A DNA stretch of 64,000 bases from Chaetoceros tenuissimus (taxonomy: Eukaryota; Bacillariophyta; Thalassiosirophyceae; Chaetocerotales; Chaetocerotaceae). Where the stretch lies: assembly GCA_021927905.1 (NCBI GenBank), contig BLLK01000047.1:1426001-1490000 (forward strand), given 5' to 3'. A program made the translations under genes and the position numbers. The notes beneath the pieces were generated by a model. The model was not told the DNA's origin. It made no database searches and saw nothing but the letters and a program-made list of their open reading frames with translations. Shown one piece after another: positions 5,084 to 57,200 of the stretch. Every line of letters starts with the position of its first letter. Positions within the stretch are counted from its first letter, which is position 1.

Positions 5084-7130
5084 CTAGAACTTGTCTCTTG
5101 ACGGCTCAACATCTCCATCGATACCAACCCAGCCATCAGGCCATTCCCAAGAATACTTGATTCCATCATAATGTTTTTCCCATGTATGGGTTATATTTTT
5201 TCTATCCAGCCAACTATGATATGAATCCTTCATTGACATTCCATGATAGCCTCTCATTCTATTGATGTATCCAGAAAAAGTGGAGAAGAAAGTACCACCA
5301 AAGGTACGACCTCTACTTGCTATGATTGTATCAATCATCCCCATGTAGTTTCCATCCAACTCTCCAAGTTTAGCATAATCCCAGTAATCGTCGAGAAATT
5401 TGACAGTGTGTTTTTCGGCAATAGGATCAAAGAATGTTTTGTTTCTCTCATCTGTGGCAATGTAAATTATTTCATTTGGCTTCCATGTTTCATTCAAGTT
5501 ATCATGCCATTCTTGTCCTGAAATCTTAACTTGAGGAAATTGGAGGTCCCCTCTTCTGACATGTAAAGATGCATATCCTCCACCGCCTTCATCGTCGATT
5601 GAAAATCCAAGCTTTTTACCTTCTTCTTGCAGTGCAAGGACAATCTTTCCAGCAGCACAATAAATGGAATCGTGATATCTCAAGTAATCTCGAACAAATC
5701 TTTTGGCATAGTTATAGATGGATGGATTTGTGAAGTATAAATAACCATAGAAGTGAGCAAACATTCGCCATGGTAGACCACTTCTGAAATGTATGAGATC
5801 TGCACTCTCAAATTCTTTGTCAATATAAATCATGTTCTTCTCCTAATAAAATCTGTAAGGATATGGAAATCTATTGAATGAACACGAAGGGAAAGTGTAT
5901 CCTACTTACCAATCTAGGATGACAAAACTCTCTCACTTTCGCATCATTTGAAGGTGAAACTTTGCCAGTTGTAAACTTTTCTTCATCAAAAACAATGCAA
6001 TGGGTTTGATTGAATTGAGGAAGGAAAGCAGCCCCTCTAAGATACCAGTAGACGTGATCACAGGCTACATCGCTTTTTGCTCTACGCTCACACTCCTTAG
6101 AACTGTTGATGACATCTTCTCTAGTGATGTTCGCGTAGCTTCTATCCACAACTTCCGTGTCAATCAACATTTCTGGAATAGGAAATCGCCCACCTTCTCC
6201 ACCTTCCCTTTTGATGAATTCTTCTGTAGTAATCCAAGGTATTCTTTTTTTGAATTCTGGTGTATTAAACGGGTAGAAATCTGCAAATCCTCTACTTGGA
6301 TTTGATTTGTCCACATCCAATAGGTAGACATTGTTGGAGGGTGGCATAACCAATGTTCTTCCAGTAACTAGCGCATATACAAATACTATTTCCAAATTCA
6401 TACGAATATTATTCCACCCACCTACATCGGGCTCAAACGAAAGGTATTTGGTCTTTCTAGACGATGATGGAGTGACAAAAGGTGATTTGAAGTTCAAATC
6501 ACGATCTCCCTGTGGGCTATTCCAATATGCTAATTCATCTACATCTACATCACATTCAATATGTCCCCTTTTAGCACCCAAGAGAGCAGGTGTCTGATCC
6601 ATTGGCAGCCCACTTACTCCTCTGCCCAATGGTCTATTAGACCGCGGAGGTAACTTTCTTGCTCTACCACTGTTTGTAGTCATAGATTCAACAACTGGAA
6701 TATCCATTTCATTAGATTTTGCAACATTATCATCTATTCTCACTTTTGACTTTTCGCTCGTTTCACCTTTGAGTCCCTTATGTTTTGATTTATCAACATT
6801 GCTGTCTCCTCTCTTCTTTACTTCTACAACTCGTTTGATGGGCTTTCCCACAGAAACAGATTCTTGTGGAGTTTTTCGTAGAGAAGAAACCTCAGCTTTT
6901 TTCTTTGCAACATTAGCACGATGTTCCTCCACCTTTTCCTCCACTTTTTCACTGAAGGAAGGAAAGCACATTCCAAACAAAAATCCCAATGAAAAGATAA
7001 ATAATACTTTCAGCAATGTAAATTTTGATCGAGGAACTCTTCTACGCAAAGGTCGCTTGTTTCTATTCGGCCCTGTGATGGGGTTCGCGATGGTTCCCCC
7101 TGAAGACACCTTTGCTCGAGATCTTATCAT
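5084..7130 (-). CDS. Type II membrane O-fucosyltransferase-like protein, copy A
   Basis: Two exons, 7130-5910 and 5842-5084, with a 67-bp intron (5843-5909). The acceptor that keeps the frame aligned with copy B is the second AG, after ATTTTATTAG. The product has 659 residues. A basic N-terminus is followed by one membrane anchor (about residues 35-56, KFTLLKVLFIFSLGFLFGM), then a charged stem and a lumenal catalytic domain. The motifs GGWNNIRMNLE (about 237-247) and HVRRGDLQF (about 501-509) are the two hallmarks of GDP-fucose protein O-fucosyltransferases (PF10250-like), and YIATDERN and FFSTFSGYINRMRGY follow as in that superfamily. The expected location is the Golgi or ER; the acceptor is unknown. 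Copy B at 15523 is a close paralogue that has one extra intron. Confidence 0.8.
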
Positions 7131-15522: not shown

Positions 15523-17429
15523 ATGATAAGACCAAGAGCAAAAAATTCGCGGGGAGTAGGGACACTTCAGTACAGAGGATCATCTAGGGCAGTCCCCCCA
15601 AGACGGCATAAAAATGGATTTTCACGTTCGAAATGGAATGTAATCAAAGTCATCCTTTTAGTTGGAGGAACAGCACTTTTCCTTGGCTTATTTTTACCTC
15701 ACAAACCTGAAGAAACAACTTCATCAACATCTGCTACTGATCATGTTGATCATAATGTTCCAAAAGAAGACGAAGTGAAATCACCAGATCTTGATACTAT
15801 CAAACATACAGGCGAAGAACATATCAGCACTGCTCGAACATTAGCTAGAGGAGTAAGTGGGCTACCTATGGAACAGACTCCCGCCCTCGTTGGAGCATCT
15901 AGAGGACACATTGAATGCGATGTTAATGTTGATGAACTTGTTTATTGGAACGATCCACAAGGTGAAGCCGACAGAAATTTTCATTCACCTTTTGCTACAC
16001 AGTCAACATCTGGAAAGACCAAATATATTACTTTTGAACCAGATAGAGGTGGATGGAATAACATCCGTATGAATTTGGAAAACATTTTCGTGTTTGCACT
16101 TGCTACTGGAAGAACTTTGGTCTTGCCTCCTGCTGCTCCTCTTTATCTCTTGAATGTAAGTATCGTCAAGTATTTTCCACATGCTTTGACTACAACATAA
16201 ATATATTCTTACATGTCATTGGCTGTATCCAAAATGTAGAAGGACAGCAAGGAAAAGCATAAAGGTTTCGGGGACTTTTTCCCGCTTGGAACAGATGAAT
16301 TCAGAAAGAGAGTACCTATCCTAACCATGGAAGAGTTCATAGTAAAAGAAGGAGGTGCAGATGGACAATTCCCTATTCCAGAAGAGGATGTGAAGAAAGT
16401 TATTGCAAGTTCGAAAGAGTGCGACAAAAGAGCAAAAAGTGACATGGCGTGTGATAATATTTGGGATTGGTTGGAAAAGTCTGCATTCGTTCCACAGTTT
16501 AATTCGTCAACCTGTATTGTTTTCGATGAAGAGAAGTTTACCTCGGGTGAAATATCTACCGAGAATGAAAAGAATAGCAAGGACTTTTGTGCACCAAGAG
16601 AGGTAAGCTTCAATAGATGCATTTCATATTGCATCTGCAATGCTACATATCTCTAACAAACTTATTTTTAAAGGATGGAATTTTCTACGTTGATAGCAAC
16701 TTTGAAGAAAATCAAATGATCCACTTTAAGAATGCCAAGGGATGGAGAATCATGTCTCACTATTATGGATATATGTACTTCACAAATCCCAAAATTTTCA
16801 ATTATTTCAAACGCTTTGTCAGAGACTTTTTGCACTACCACGATGAAATATATTGTGCTGCTGGAAAGATTGTCCTGGCATTGCAAGAAGAAGGTAAAAA
16901 GCTTGGATTTTCAACTGATGGTGAAGGTGGTGGAGGATTTGCCTCTATGCATGTTCGACGTGGAGACTTACAATATAAAAAGGTTAAGATTCCTGCTGAA
17001 GAATGGTATGAAAATCTCAAAGATACTTGGCAACCGAATGAAATTATCTATATTGCTACGGATGAGAGAAACAAAACATTCTTTGATCCTATCGCCAAAG
17101 AACATACAGTCAAATTCCTCGATGACTACTGGGATTATGCTAAACTTGGAGAGTTGGATGGAAACTACATGGGAATGATTGATACAATCGTAGCGAGTAG
17201 AGGCCGTGCCTTTGGTGGTACTTTCTTCTCCACTTTTTCTGGATACATCAATAGAATGAGAGGCTATCATGGAATGTCAATGAAGGATTCATACTATGGG
17301 TATCTTCCAAAGAAAGATATCACTCACGAATGGAAGGATCATTACAGTGGAACAACATTTTCCTATGAGTGGCCTGATGGCTGGGTTGGTATCGATGGTG
17401 ATTCAGAACCATCTAAAGACAAATTTTAA
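15523..17429 (+). CDS. Type II membrane O-fucosyltransferase-like protein, copy B
   Basis: Three exons (15523-16155, 16240-16602, 16674-17429), with introns of 84 and 71 bp, encode 583 residues. The N-terminus MIRPRAKNSRG, the anchor (VIKVILLVGGTALFLGLF), GGWNNIRMNLE, the MHVRRGDLQY motif and the C-terminal FFSTFSGYINRMRGY match copy A closely, including the long nearly identical block YIATDERNKTFFDPI. The second intron lies at the position of copy A's only intron; the first intron, after PLYLLN, is absent from copy A. The stem region is shorter than in copy A. Same expected role: lumenal O-fucosyl transfer to an unknown acceptor. Confidence 0.82.
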
Positions 17430-33323: not shown

Positions 33324-34658
33324 TTATTTCGACTCAAGCATAAAATGCCATTGCCTCCAGTAGTTCAAAACATCCATCAAGTACTGAGCTAGAGGTTTGC
33401 CTATAATTGGAATATAATTTCCAACGATTGCAACCTTTTCAGCCACTGGTTGCGTAGCTATGTTCCAACATGGTGCTCGTAATAGATATAAAACAAGCTT
33501 CATTTTTCTATGGTACAATTCGTTTTTTGTTGAGTGTGATGATACATCCACTATATCATGTCCAACAAGCATTGTTTTCGATATTTTGGTACATTGATGT
33601 GAGAGAATGTCGATGCACAAGGATCTCAGCCACAATTTCAACATTTTCTGCTTAGAATTTTCTTTGTAGTCGCCTTCTATTTGCAACGAAGAACTGACGT
33701 AATAGTAGGGTCTATAAATGTGAAGAATCTCTCCCATTGTCAGGAGAAGGAACCTCATTTTACTGGAGTTCAATGTTGATATGTTGGATATCAACTGATA
33801 TGTTGGACTCTGTTGATGTTTTCTCTGTAATGGAGCTCTCATCTTTCTCCCAGTGCGTTTACCAACGTACAGTAGCTTTTTTATTCGATCGTTTTCCTCT
33901 TTTGTTTTTGTTATGCATTCGTCTGGAACTAATATGCCTCCTTCTTCTAGGATACCAGTGCTTCCTACTTCTAAAATACGCGCAGATTCATCAAGATCTT
34001 GCATTCGTTTCCGTCGCTTCAAGTAATGTAGACCTAATAAACCCATTCGACATACAAACTTAATCTTTTCAACTTTCGCAGAAACTGATAGTGCATTCAT
34101 ATGCCTTTGATGACTTTTCATCTGAGTAGAGGTTTGCTGAAAAGAGCTCCGCGATGGAGGTGAAACAGTTCTGTAATATGCAGATACTTCCAATGAGGGT
34201 TCTATACATTCCATCATTGACAAAATGAAACGTAATCCAACCATACTTTTGTACCGATTTTGTTCATCTTCATTGCTACAATTCTCCAATATACCCCCTA
34301 CAGTGAAGCCATTTCCATCTCCAAATCCATGATAAACAATCTCATTGAAAAGACTCCAAACATGTATGCATGCATAAAGAGTTTCAGGTAACACCTTTTT
34401 CTTTGAGCCATGTAAGGCATCATCCTCATCGTGCTGCACAAATCTAGATGGAGTATAAATCACCATACGACATAGACCATCTTCAATCAGCTTCATGAAA
34501 AATCTATTCTTTCGTATGAATGTACGATATCGATCAAGGTAGGATTCTTCTTTTGTGATGACAGATGGTTCATTTTCATTATTTCTATCGGAACTTCCTC
34601 TCGTATTCTTTCTCCAGTTATTATTACTACACTCGCTCCAACGTACATCTGTTGACAT
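33324..34658 (-). CDS. PEX16: Peroxisome membrane biogenesis protein PEX16
   Basis: 444 residues from the ATG at 34658. The sequence has the PEX16 layout: an N-terminal helical segment (YRTFIRKNRFFMKLIEDGLC), ETLYACIHVWSLFNEIVYHG, KVEKIKFVCRMGLLGLHYLK, then MGEILHIYRPYYYVSSSLQ and LVLYLLRAPCWNIATQPVAE, with a C-terminal PIIGKPLAQYLMDVLNYWRQ matching the conserved PEX16 tail. PEX16 recruits peroxisomal membrane proteins at the ER or peroxisome. Length and motif order are ordinary for the family. Confidence 0.85.
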   Translation of the reverse strand: MSTDVRWSECSNNNWRKNTRGSSDRNNENEPSVITKEESYLDRYRTFIRKNRFFMKLIEDGLCRMVIYTPSRFVQHDEDDALHGSKKKVLPETLYACIHVWSLFNEIVYHGFGDGNGFTVGGILENCSNEDEQNRYKSMVGLRFILSMMECIEPSLEVSAYYRTVSPPSRSSFQQTSTQMKSHQRHMNALSVSAKVEKIKFVCRMGLLGLHYLKRRKRMQDLDESARILEVGSTGILEEGGILVPDECITKTKEENDRIKKLLYVGKRTGRKMRAPLQRKHQQSPTYQLISNISTLNSSKMRFLLLTMGEILHIYRPYYYVSSSLQIEGDYKENSKQKMLKLWLRSLCIDILSHQCTKISKTMLVGHDIVDVSSHSTKNELYHRKMKLVLYLLRAPCWNIATQPVAEKVAIVGNYIPIIGKPLAQYLMDVLNYWRQWHFMLESK

Positions 34659-35132
34659 TTTCACTCAGTAATGAGCTCTGTGGCCAACTTTACAATGAAT
34701 TGAATTGAAATAGGCTCATTATTACTGGGAGATGCGAGAAGCTACACTACAGCATCACAGCATCACCCACATTTAGCTGTTAGTTACAGTTAAGAAAAGG
34801 CCCTTTCGTGCCAGGTTATGAGTTAGAGGATAACTGAAAGACGACAAGGTCGTCTGCTTGTTTATTGTTGATGCTGATGAAAGTATTCAAATCAGTTTAT
34901 TATCGGTTTGTCAGGGAACCGATTCCTTACCCCGTTTATTTTTCCGTTCGTGCGTGCGTGCGTTCGTTCGTGTCACACTACTAACAGATGACCCCAACGG
35001 GGTGAAATGATTCGCTCCGTTCTATTGTTCGCGTCGCACTACTAACTGTTGACTCTAAATGGTGATTCGTTCATTCTCATGACGGATAGAAGGTCAGACT
35101 GTCTGCAAGTAAAAGACACTCTACCTAGGACC
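34659..35132. other. Intergenic with degenerate tandem unit
   Basis: Contains a GTGC/GTTC microsatellite (34950-34970) and two diverged units (about 34966-35015 and 35027-35075) sharing CGTGTCACACTACTAAC/CGCGTCGCACTACTAAC and GGTGAAATGATTCG/GGTGATTCG. No gene. Confidence 0.45.
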
Positions 35133-35141
35133 ATTCTATTG

Positions 35142-35598
35142 CCATGAGGGGCGTTTCATACAAATTTGTACAAAAGACCCTTCTTTTCCCTTTCTTTTCT
35201 CTATGTTTTTGAAAAAATCAATCTAAGAGTAGTGTTTCTCATTCTCACACTTTGATAATTGAGTATAATACTTTCATTATAAGCTTAGTTACACCATAGA
35301 CACATCCTTTAATTAATAAAGCATTATAAGAAAATAATGCAAAGAAATCTTACGAATTCATATGTATGAAATATATGTCACGAAAGAGGTAGACTTGAAT
35401 GTTGCTGGTAATTAAATAATATTTTTATTGTCCGAAAGGCTTACATAATTAAGAAAGTCTGTAATTGAAGAGTTAAAGTGGATATGTTTAAAGCTAATTA
35501 TTTTGCAAAACAAATGACGTACTCGTACGTATAAGCTTAGTATGACGATTTTTTGTATGGAACGGCTCATAATCCTTTGTATGAAACGACCCACATTG
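35142..35598 (+). mobile_element. Non-autonomous DNA transposon (Mutator-like MITE), copy 1
   Basis: A 457-bp element with terminal inverted repeats of about 23 bp (three mismatches) that share CGTTTCATACAAA at both ends. It contains only 60-66 codon ORFs and no transposase. It is the exact reverse complement of 35659-36115. The flanks are 9 bp: ATTCTATTG on the left and GGTACAGCA on the right. These match the flanks of copy 2 crosswise rather than each other. A 9-bp duplication is typical of Mutator-like elements; the superfamily call is inferred from that length. Confidence 0.8.
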
Positions 35599-35658
35599 GG
35601 TACAGCACGCACTTACCTCGTCACTGTGTTAGAATGTCTGTACAATAGACAATAGAAT
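35599..35658. other. 60-bp spacer of the palindrome, apparently inverted
   Basis: Starts with GGTACAGCA and ends with CAATAGAAT. If this spacer is flipped, both transposon copies become flanked by perfect 9-bp direct repeats. Confidence 0.65.
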
Positions 35659-36115
35659 CAATGTGGGTCGTTTCATACAAAGGATTATGAGCCGTTCCAT
35701 ACAAAAAATCGTCATACTAAGCTTATACGTACGAGTACGTCATTTGTTTTGCAAAATAATTAGCTTTAAACATATCCACTTTAACTCTTCAATTACAGAC
35801 TTTCTTAATTATGTAAGCCTTTCGGACAATAAAAATATTATTTAATTACCAGCAACATTCAAGTCTACCTCTTTCGTGACATATATTTCATACATATGAA
35901 TTCGTAAGATTTCTTTGCATTATTTTCTTATAATGCTTTATTAATTAAAGGATGTGTCTATGGTGTAACTAAGCTTATAATGAAAGTATTATACTCAATT
36001 ATCAAAGTGTGAGAATGAGAAACACTACTCTTAGATTGATTTTTTCAAAAACATAGAGAAAAGAAAGGGAAAAGAAGGGTCTTTTGTACAAATTTGTATG
36101 AAACGCCCCTCATGG
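35659..36115 (-). mobile_element. Non-autonomous DNA transposon (Mutator-like MITE), copy 2, inverted
   Basis: Identical to copy 1 in reverse orientation over all 457 bp. The left flank CAATAGAAT is the reverse complement of copy 1's left flank, and the right flank TGCTGTACC is the reverse complement of copy 1's right flank. Identity between copies shows recent origin or gene conversion. Confidence 0.8.
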
Positions 36116-36232
36116 TGCTGTACCGTTTTACTTCTTCCAAAATAGGGTGAACCTACTATGTACTATCATTTACTTTTAGTTTCGATAAGAAAAAACAAAC
36201 AAACCGATTTCAACCTGACTTGTTGAAAGACC

Positions 36233-36828: not shown

Positions 36829-37665
36829 TTACAAGTTACCGTATTTAAAATTAACACCAGGTTTTTTTACAAAACAAGGTGCTTCTTTCGAACACAAATA
36901 TTTTGCAAATTGTGGGATTGTTAATTCCTTGAACTTTGAATCAGATGGCAAAATGATGTCTGCACAAATCGAAATGGAATTTCGTTGATAAATCGATGGC
37001 TGATGCTCAATATCCGAAAATTTTCCAGAAGATTTGCGACCAAGAAAAATAACATCTCCGTCTTCGATTTCAACCGTAACTCTATCAAAATTATCAGTAC
37101 CATCGACCCGTCTCCTCCATCCAAATTTTTTGTCAACAAGCTCGGGATCGTCATCTATTTTAATTTGAGCGAATCTTGTCAATAACATACGTAGAAATGG
37201 CTCAACACCATTGTGATGTTTTGCCGATGATAGGTCCCTGTGCCATCGCATTTTTGCAGCTGCATCACATCCCTCTTCTCTTGCATCCAGAACATAAACC
37301 TGGAGGAATGGAAGAATTGTAATGTTATGGTGAGAACAAAATTCAATAAATAACTGAAGTTCCGGACAAAATTCCTCAAGCTGCTTCACAGTAATTCTTT
37401 CTCCTTTGAATCCTTCTGCATCAATTTCATTGATAGAGGTCGTGAATTTATATGTTGTTTTGTTGCCAGTGTCTACAACATTATTCATTACATGTCTTGT
37501 GAATGCGTTGGACTTTTTGTTCCCTGCTTGCAATGCATCAGGGAACACTTGCACAACTGCAAAATCTCCAAGGATTTCAGTCCAAAGATCTCTGTCGCCT
37601 GGAGTACCTTCATCAGATGGTATTTCTCCCGTAACTTTCTGCTTCTTCGCAGTTGGAGGATTCAT
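36829..37665 (-). CDS. Putative 2OG-Fe(II) oxygenase (AlkB-like)
   Basis: 278 residues from an ATG. A candidate metal motif WHRDLS (H-x-D, about residue 145) is followed by VTVEIEDGDVIFLGRK, a distal histidine in DIEHQP and an RNSISIC segment in which R and S could bind the 2OG carboxylate. This order matches double-stranded beta-helix dioxygenases such as AlkB homologues. The N-terminus is short and polar. Substrate unknown; the call is tentative. The gene lies between the two halves of the split methyltransferase-like gene. Confidence 0.45.
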   Translation of the reverse strand: MNPPTAKKQKVTGEIPSDEGTPGDRDLWTEILGDFAVVQVFPDALQAGNKKSNAFTRHVMNNVVDTGNKTTYKFTTSINEIDAEGFKGERITVKQLEEFCPELQLFIEFCSHHNITILPFLQVYVLDAREEGCDAAAKMRWHRDLSSAKHHNGVEPFLRMLLTRFAQIKIDDDPELVDKKFGWRRRVDGTDNFDRVTVEIEDGDVIFLGRKSSGKFSDIEHQPSIYQRNSISICADIILPSDSKFKELTIPQFAKYLCSKEAPCFVKKPGVNFKYGNL

Positions 37666-54243: not shown

Positions 54244-57200
54244 ATGAAAGTATCTGTTTCAATTCTCGCCTTTTGGTTGTATTCCTTCAGTGCATGTACA
54301 AAAATACTTGCTGAAACACAGCAAGGTGAATGCGCAGTGGATTCGGAAACAGGGGAGTGCAAAGCATCATCAATTAAAGCTACGGCCTATGACGATGATG
54401 ACGACGATTATGAACCAATTGATGAATTCCCTGAATGTGCTGAGTGGGCAAAAGATGGTGAATGCACTGTGAATCCAAAGTAAGTGACAGTTTTGTGCAA
54501 TGCTGGCATTTTTATAACTCTTTGTTGCAAAATTTCTAATACTTACTTTTCAAAGTTTCATGAGTTCAAAATGCATCAAATCCTGTTCTCTTTACCGTAG
54601 ACGAGACTCTCCACCTCATCGAAGAGGTCCTTACAGAGCATTTATGCCTTCTGATACATGTCAGCTTTATATGGCAGAATCATCAATTCCAAATTCTGGT
54701 CTAGGAATGTACACTGCTGTACCCATCTCCCAAAATAGAATGATTTTTCATCCTGACATTGTGGTCAACTATTTTGATTTTCAATACCATAATAACATTG
54801 CAAATGAACATTTTCAAAACGTCAAATATGGTGCTGAGATCGAGAAGCTTGTTGAGGGAAAGAAGGATAATGATGCAAGCTGTAGAAAATGGGCTATAGA
54901 AGGCGAATGCGATGCTAATTCAAAATACATGTTGAATTCTTGCAGTAAATCTTGTGTGTTGATGGAAGCTGGAGTGTTGAAAGAAGTCGATGAAAAGTTC
55001 TGGGTACCTGATGATTACTATTGGGATGCAGGAAATACTGAATCAGATTATGAAGCTGATGTCGTATCAGCATTGGTTCCTGGTCTGGGTGCATTGGCAA
55101 ATTCTCATACTGGTTTGGTAAATGCTCACATGCAAAGAGGTAGAGTTGACGCTACCTCCTTTCATCGATCGAAAGATCCCGGTATAGGTGCATTCTCAAA
55201 CTTTCATAATCTTGGCTATATGGCAAAAGAAAACATTCCAGCTGGTATGGAACTATTTGTAGAATATGGAGACGAATGGTTCTCTGGGCGTGAGTGGAAG
55301 TTTGGACCAATCCCCCTAAGCTGGCATTTTGAGGAAGCTGATAGGATTGTGAATGAGTTCTGGAGTCATGCTGATGAAGTTAGTGTTGACGGCTTTGCTG
55401 AAGATTTGTTTCAAACTACAAAAGAACTAATAACGGATGTAAAGCTTTCCATGGCAATGCCTGCTTCACTGCAAAACGCTGAAACTGCAAGACATAATGG
55501 AACTGCAATTTTAAGTGTCCCTAATGCAATTCGATCTCAGGAATGGCTACAAGAAAATGGCATTTGTCTTGACAACATAGTATCTATTCAATCAGGGGTT
55601 CAACAAGCTGGGAGAGGGGCGGCAGCAACTAGGAACTTGAAGAAAGGAGAAGTCATTGCCCCATTGCCTGTTATTCATATGGACAGAAGGAGGTTGAGGA
55701 TGTTTGTACATGATGAAGATTCAGAGGACCCTCCTGTTGAAAAGGCAGAACAACTGATTGTTAATTACTCCTATGGTCATAAGGATTCCTCGCTCCTACT
55801 TTTCCCGTACTCTCCTGTTGTTAATTTTATCAATAACAACTTGGACAAGACTAAAGTCAATGCAAGAGTGCGCTGGTCTACAAGCCGATATCATGCCAAG
55901 GACTGGGAAGATCTTACTACCGATGAAGTACTTGATGAGAAACGCACTGGTCTCATGTTAGAAATTGTAGCGACCAAAGATATTGAGCAAAGCGATGAAA
56001 TTTTTTTGGACTACGGAGAGGATTGGGATCAAGCATGGAACGATTATCTCAAATCATGGAAACCTGTTGAAGACGATTACTTGCCACTCCACATGTTGAA
56101 TAGTCGAGAAAATATCTTGACAAAGTCGGAGCAAGCAAAGCATCCGCTCCCGTCTAATGCAATGACGATTTGTTTTATTCACGCAATAACTGAAATGCCC
56201 GGAGGAGGAAAGGTCAGTTATAGTGACCACGCATCAGCTTTGGATGCATTCAGGCATACCCAAGAATGCGAAATAGAACGAAGATATGAAGAGATTGACG
56301 AAAAGACAGGCAAACTAACAACTCTTTATGATGTGAAAGTCAAAATTGGAACTAAAGAAAACCGAAACTCAAATGCAGGAAAGGCTACAGTCACAGGAGT
56401 GCCTAGGAAGGCAATTGAGTATGTAGATACACCATACTCTTCAGATCAACATCTACCACATTTATTTCGACATCCTATTCACATACCCGATGAAATCTTC
56501 CCTCAAAAATGGAGAGACCTCGCAGATGGAAGCATAGATGATGGACAAGAATTTGTTCATGACACTGTAGAGGCAGCTTGGGAGAACGAACAAGGTGCGT
56601 TTGAACAATGTCAATTTTGGCTTGCAGAATCATCCATTCCGAACAGTGGAATGGGTTTGTATACTGGGGTGAAGCTTCGTCCAGGTGATTTCTCTCTGAA
56701 GGAAATTATCATTCCAATTCATGATCGTGAACAGAATACTAAACTCCGCTGTGATTTATCTCCTTTCACTTGTAAACAGATCAATAAATGGTTGATTGAA
56801 GATTATGAATGGAGTGATAGTTTGGGATGGGCTAGACATGAAGCAAAGGAGACATTCTTTGCAAATCCAGGTTTTGGAAGTATTCCGAACCATCACGTTG
56901 GAATGTCGTCTGCATGCCCGCAGATATCTTTGAAAAGCAATGGTAATCTACATAGATCAAGAGATGCTGCTTCTGGTTCGATTTCTCCCTACGATTCACT
57001 GTCATTTGAAATAACTCGACATGTTGAAGCAGGACAAGAGCTGTTCATAAACTATGGAGAAGGTGAGTTGTTTTAATTCTTTATCTCTCACTATTTTATT
57101 GCTTGTCTTCAATTCACATCCAAAATAAAATGCTGATTCAGGATATTTTGATGACAAACCTCAATATACCAACATGACAAAACGGTATGAGTTTCTTCAA

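Follow-up and report, generated by a model that had tools for sequence, protein, structure and literature searches.

How did two identical transposable elements come to lie in opposite orientation around a short spacer, with the 9-bp sequences at their borders exchanged crosswise? The question is raised by a palindrome in the stretch of Chaetoceros tenuissimus DNA analyzed here (64,000 nucleotides; hereafter the window). A preliminary description had explained it by two independent insertions, followed by recombination between the inverted copies that flipped the spacer. We read the palindrome again and searched the 41.0-Mb assembly (68 contigs, including the window) for further copies of the element, E, and of the DNA on both sides of it, which proved to be a dispersed repeat, X. 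The features of the locus are as follows.

34897..36223, + strand: host repeat X with two E copies inside; about 430 bp when empty; ends TTATTATCGG... and ...CAACCTGACTTGT
35133..35141, + strand: outer copy of the 9-bp flank of site A, ATTCTATTG; sequence read directly
35142..35598, + strand: E copy 1, a 457-bp non-autonomous, MULE-like element, at site A
35142..35164, + strand: left TIR of E copy 1, CCATGAGGGGCGTTTCATACAAA; inverted-repeat scan, extended by 2 bp by eye
35576..35598, - strand: right TIR of E copy 1; inverted-repeat scan, extended by 2 bp by eye
35599..35607, - strand: inner copy of the site B 9-mer, GGTACAGCA, displaced by the inversion
35608..35649, - strand: spacer core, 42 bp, inverted relative to 34/36 X copies
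35650..35658, - strand: inner copy of the site A 9-mer, CAATAGAAT, displaced by the inversion
35659..36115, - strand: second copy of E, at site B, with the same sequence as copy 1
36116..36124, + strand: outer copy of the site B 9-mer, TGCTGTACC
33327-34664, - strand: neighboring frame with a Pex16 domain
36832-37665, - strand: neighboring frame, unassigned

The arms (35142-35598 and 35659-36115) measure 457 nt each and are 100% complementary across a spacer of 60 nt, the sole case of complete identity among the five inverted pairs of at least 40 nt in the window. All four 9-mers are intact and correspond crosswise without a mismatch on either side; with equal base frequencies, both 9-mer matches would arise by chance with a probability of 4^-18 (~1.5e-11). 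Re-inversion of the spacer by script gives ATTCTATTG-E-ATTCTATTG ... TGCTGTACC-E'-TGCTGTACC. The arms, gap and flanks were re-read just as the preliminary description had given them, and its claim that undoing the flip restores two 9-bp direct duplications was reproduced. The TIR of E extends over 21 nt at 90% in the inverted-repeat scan and about 23 bp by eye, and no reading frame of at least 150 aa overlaps the palindrome.

Element E and its long relatives

E has at least 37 matches in the genome. Ten copies outside X, counted where both ends are present in the stretch read (leaving out L060, L061 and L024), allow the flanks to be compared: six have a perfect 9-bp duplication (L001, CAATCAACG; L008, ATCGCTTTG; the composite on contig C32 described below, CTCCTCTGA; L018, GTGGCTGTG; L020, CCCTGTGGG; L023, CGCGGAGGA), two match at 8/9 (L019 and L062), one at 7/9 (L021), and one is unmatched (L022). 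Target duplications of 9 bp at other copies, which the preliminary description had proposed as a check, are thus carried by most of them. According to the part of PMC6446971 available, the duplications of MULEs measure 8-11 bp, and its table gives 9-10 bp together with a TIR of 22 bp for the fungal Mutyl; E resembles MULEs in its 9-bp duplications and in its TIRs, which are short like those of some fungal groups.

Three long relatives of E (L021-L023, 4.7-7.7 kb) have both ends and the TIRs in common with it. A 571-aa frame is intact and the same in L022 and L023 and is broken in L021. Compared with in-genome relatives at 27-33% identity, the encoded protein has its D, D and CxxH positions in common with three and its NGLE with one; as this pattern marks MULE transposases, it is a putative further likeness to them. 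In contrast to MULEs proper, the long-copy transposase reaches only 14.6 bits (E value 0.046) against PF10551, and the piece from L021 14.9 bits, both below the cut-off of 27.6. A genome search with the same profile returned 14 places, 13 of them above the cut-off and none of them a long E-family copy, and no PF10551 match was found in the six frames of four in-genome relatives. Taken by its sequence, E is a non-autonomous member of a divergent, probably Mutator-like family. The Mutator-like origin proposed at the outset fits the 9-bp duplications and the divergent transposase of the long copies, although that protein remains under the Pfam cut-off for MULEs. No close named relative of the family was identified, and none of the titles or abstract openings among the literature matches listed names E, which is not proof of its absence from print.

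Host repeat X and its insertion sites

Searches with both outer flanks identified 34897-35141 and 36116-36223 as the two halves of X, whose right end occurs 36 times in the genome (35 exact, one with one mismatch). We examined all 36: the window copy and those at 34 further loci, of which one holds two. The 40-bp flanks of 34 copies are unrelated to each other by eye, and a scan for a target duplication at the ends of X found none beyond constant bases; a helentron-like repeat was considered as one possible class for X. The idea that X is itself built from E was ruled out by E-free copies of X at many places with different flanks.

The sister copies of X provide a standard for the spacer. Its orientation is the same in 34 of the 36 and flipped in two, the window and L027 (C13:980510-982068); no other copy combines an E at A with an oppositely oriented E at B. 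The orientation count further took in the C32 composite, which has a standard spacer and is not an X copy. Among the uninverted relatives, both empty and single-E forms are seen, with the standard spacer. Given that only the window and C13 depart from the other 34 copies, the inversion claimed in the preliminary description is real, or it has been mis-assembled twice. The palindrome was thus described correctly there, and what had escaped notice was its nesting in X, the second flipped locus and the repeated use of site A. Where site A of an X copy is free of E, its 9-mer adjoins the spacer directly; the exact 9-mer without E is found in one subfamily of X only, the other reading ATTCT-TCTATTG. 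Both forms (ATTCTATTGTCTATTG versus ATTCT-TCTATTG) may have been left as scars by old insertions at ATTCTATTG, and no unscarred site A was seen among the X copies.

The alignment of C13 with the window covers X and E only and does not extend into the DNA outside. At C13, three of the four 9-mers are intact, and one arm lacks E positions 1-158 exactly up to its 9-bp flank. The inner copy of site A is mostly lost; at the other end of the cut arm, two bases of E are gone along with most of this 9-mer. These arm losses are perhaps the result of failed excision and repair.

In 11/36 X copies, E occupies site B, always in one orientation, and copy 2 of the window agrees with these in site and orientation. 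In three cases (L005/L028, L006/L029 and L007/L026), E stands alone at B with both GGTACAGCA duplications perfect. Because of this distribution, we regard the insertion at B as the older one, which has travelled inside X. In L053-L055, the empty site B reads TGCTGTA-GT-TGCTGTACC, which looks like an excision scar.

Site A has several occupants. In the window and at C13 it is E; in the C32 composite, a 93% relative (E2) lies in the opposite orientation at exactly ATTCTATTG; L048 has a fragment of E there, and L049 a longer, related element. The fragment in L048 has the orientation seen in the window and an unflipped spacer, its left side being lost; the sites in L048 and L049 differ from the site A 9-mer by 2 and 1 bases, respectively. 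Site A is a hot spot, at which at least three other E-family elements have inserted. A second re-used insertion point is site C in the right half of X (ATCATTTAC / TATCATTTA), with a 73% relative of E in L053-L055 (C32, C54 and C19) and E itself in L056 (C17); these insertions lie within one base of each other in opposite orientations, and the duplication in L056 matches at 7/9. An apparent rule that four E pairs are spaced by 58-66 bp was ruled out as a property of E: the spacing derives from the sites in X, since it is the distance from A to B in three pairs and that from B to C in the C17 pair.

By our count, at least seven insertion events fall in X (four at A, one at B and two at C) and about 12 outside it, the latter drawn from 13 places of which two may be one element; such counts are a matter of judgment, and related copies may be missed. 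As X makes up ~0.04% of the genome, the binomial probability of 7 of 19 events falling in it is ~5e-20, a figure that shows strong enrichment only. The MULE Muta1 reinserts with 8-9 bp duplications and without apparent sequence preference, in the part of PMC5225508 available; the E family differs in re-using near-exact sites in X. The repeated insertions at A and C prompt the question of how such a transposase returns to an identical 9-bp target.

At L059 (C32:658800-660800), one 9-bp duplication, CTCCTCTGA, encloses E, an X spacer in the standard order and, in direct orientation to E, E2, as would be expected had they moved as a composite unit carrying a piece of X. Paired elements that move as a unit are the basis of the composite transposon or macrotransposon concept. 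The unit on C32 is like these in lying within one 9-bp duplication, and differs in consisting of two miniature elements in direct orientation.

E is not alone in X, which seems to accumulate insertions from several families. A 4-kb insertion in L058 (C27:948400-953156; ends CTCCAGCACG / CGTGCTGGAG) contains a frame of 1145 aa that matches no Pfam model above a curated cut-off. A near-identical full-length frame lies at C16:135233-138667, and weaker relatives are found elsewhere; as the C16 frame is accompanied by no listed match to X, the insert was ruled out as an autonomous form of X, and it resembles a transposon of no assigned class whose duplication may measure 3 bp. In L057 (C34:3436216-3438723), an element of ~1.7 kb (ends GTACTTGTCGAGTG / ACACTCGACAAATAC) lies in the right half of X.

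Routes to the inverted spacer

What is observed at this locus comprises a spacer that, in this assembly, is inverted when compared with sister repeats, exchanged duplications, nesting in X and a second locus of the same form; from these we infer the enzyme chemistry, the order of the insertion at A and the flip, and the number of flips. Three routes, namely recombination, insertion of a hybrid element and replicative transposition, predict the same sequence. We favor recombination between two inverted E insertions as the best explanation and give it about an even chance of being correct. On this account, E would first have entered site B of X, after which a second, identical E would have entered site A, 42 bp away, in the opposite orientation. 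The inverted 457-bp copies would then have recombined, by crossover or by break repair between the arms, thereby inverting the spacer and swapping the inner target duplications between the two copies, and gene conversion between the arms would have kept the copies identical. For the flipped form to be present at two loci, either X would have moved with the pair inside or the flip would have happened twice.

A precedent is offered by the Galileo inversions of Drosophila buzzatii (2z3 and others), where, in the sections of PMC2775673 available, an inverted pair of cut-and-paste transposons likewise bounds the inverted segment, the target duplications are exchanged crosswise, and uninverted relatives have single copies of the target. 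Exchanged duplications are regarded there as the mark of ectopic recombination between inverted transposons. The two systems differ in that Galileo belongs to the P superfamily, makes 7-bp duplications and bounds chromosomal inversions, whereas the E pair has 9-bp duplications and a 42-bp core; further, the comparison drawn here is with sister repeats rather than alleles, and the Galileo copies are chimeric whereas the arms here are identical (PMC2775673). According to the same source, recombination is expected to leave chimeric copies and hybrid-element insertion identical ones. As the arms are identical at both flipped loci, they hold no markers for such a test, and their identity, being unable to reveal chimerism, is weak evidence either way. 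In favor of recombination, the flipped spacer coincides with inverted E copies at A and B, ordinary insertion at A does occur, as seen in the unflipped L048 and in E2 of the C32 composite, and sites 227 and 400 of E are found in all four combinations, an outcome expected from conversion between copies or from repeated mutation; counting against it, the unflipped double form, A-E-A...B-E-B, was not found among the 36 X copies.

The second route, which we consider possible if rather doubtful, is that, after replication, transposase joined the opposite ends of the two site B copies of E on sister chromatids, the resulting hybrid element then being inserted at the nearby site A. A single cut-and-paste event would then yield the identical inverted pair, the inverted spacer and the exchanged 9-bp flanks, with no need for a second donor or later conversion. 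By our own derivation and the legend of Fig. S1A in PMC2775673, it predicts the exact sequence of the window. The corresponding event with its target on another fragment was ruled out by our own reasoning, as it gives a deletion and a duplication or a dicentric rather than the observed structure.

The identical copies predicted by hybrid-element insertion (PMC2775673, in the part available) are present at both loci, which differ from each other in haplotype. In the window, the arms agree at 457/457 positions and are identical also to the solo copy L001; the C13 arms are identical over the 297/297 bases that they share, and the full arm differs from the window as the solo L008 does. The differences between the window and C13 lie at E positions 227, 290 and 400: among 21 aligned copies, the window has its 290T in common only with L001, and C13 its 227A/290C/400C only with L008. 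Among eight other modern copies of E, only 3/28 pairs are identical, which speaks for the hybrid element, when positions 18-457 are compared (L013 lacks the first 17 bases) and, of the 21 aligned copies, the palindrome arms, E2 of the composite and eight older or E2-type copies (L011 twice, L014-L016, L018, L019 and L020) are left out. By the list of differences, however, E2 equals L018 and L014 equals L015 and L016 among these omitted copies, so that 3/28 understates how often copies at separate places are identical. Further, conversion between arms 60 bp apart can likewise give identity, a second insertion costs little given how often A and C have received ordinary ones, and the literature consulted, as far as available, holds no case of the hybrid route for a MULE.

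The haplotypes also bear on the number of flips. Either the flip occurred once, with conversion between the arms renewing their identity at each locus, or it occurred twice from resident copies; alignment of the X copies, whose differences are mainly microsatellite length and private indels, does not decide between the two. The site B copy of L026 has 227A in common with C13 and not with the window, which leans toward two origins. This lean is weakened by the presence of all four combinations at sites 227 and 400, which calls for conversion between copies or for repeated mutation. It is conceivable, and in our estimate unlikely, that a MULE-like transposase re-uses X as a landing pad, coming back to identical 9-bp sites, and that aberrant transposition from B to A with inversion, of the hybrid-element or the replicative type, took place in one step, twice, each time copying the resident haplotype. 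Since such a one-step event starting from the site B copy gives the same product, and both arms of either flipped locus carry the same haplotype, the two independent insertions of the preliminary description are not established.

The third route, in which E at B is copied into A by replicative, cointegrate-type intramolecular transposition in trans and the segment between is inverted, appears improbable to us. In the bacterial IS6/IS26 elements, transposition of this kind leaves the same final copies, flanks and inverted segment, the legend of Fig. 6 in the IS6 review describing an inverted segment, an inverted new copy and, around each copy, one flank from the original site and one from the target (PMC7986276); the process there is replicative, and evidence of such chemistry was not found for E. 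Against it, most solo E copies have ordinary duplications, the empty site B of L053-L055 bears an apparent excision scar, and the MULE Muta1, in the part of PMC5225508 available, excises in yeast with mostly precise repair.

Also improbable, and the least likely of the four, is a true locus of the form A-E-A ... B-E-B in which the assembler turned the 60-bp spacer: lying between identical arms of 457 bp, the spacer is beyond orientation by short reads, and the assembly also raises doubt at C16:3089724-3096715, a long copy from the E family, whose flanks, TCTGTTTCG / GGTAAAATG, are unmatched while a copy ~4.3 kb from the start of C43 (L024, C43:3800-4557) has GGTAAAATG as its left flank, but the doubtful place is a 7-kb repeat, the C13 locus is flipped as well with one arm cut to 297 bp, and contigs of up to 4.5 Mb with no N in the window or the examined loci suggest, as we read them, that reads were longer than the 1-kb palindrome. 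The flank sharing between L022 (C16:3089524-3096915) and L024 is itself likely an assembly join, or else an exchange between the two copies. The four readings of the locus do not take up all of the probability, a small part of which we leave unassigned.

Since the target is a repeat with 36 copies, the states before and after a transposon-made inversion are both visible in one genome. A flip mediated by transposons is of an already known kind; the completeness of the record and the re-use of near-exact sites in X are unusual. The locus could serve to separate free flipping of close inverted MULE-like copies from one-step aberrant transposition.

Elsewhere in the window, the protein encoded at 54560-57073 has no match among solved structures. 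Two further sets of inverted repeats, 5085-5771 / 16742-17428 (80%) and 6340-6634 / 15836-16130 (74%), are arranged in nested order ~10 kb apart, and are perhaps the diverged remains of an old inverted duplication.
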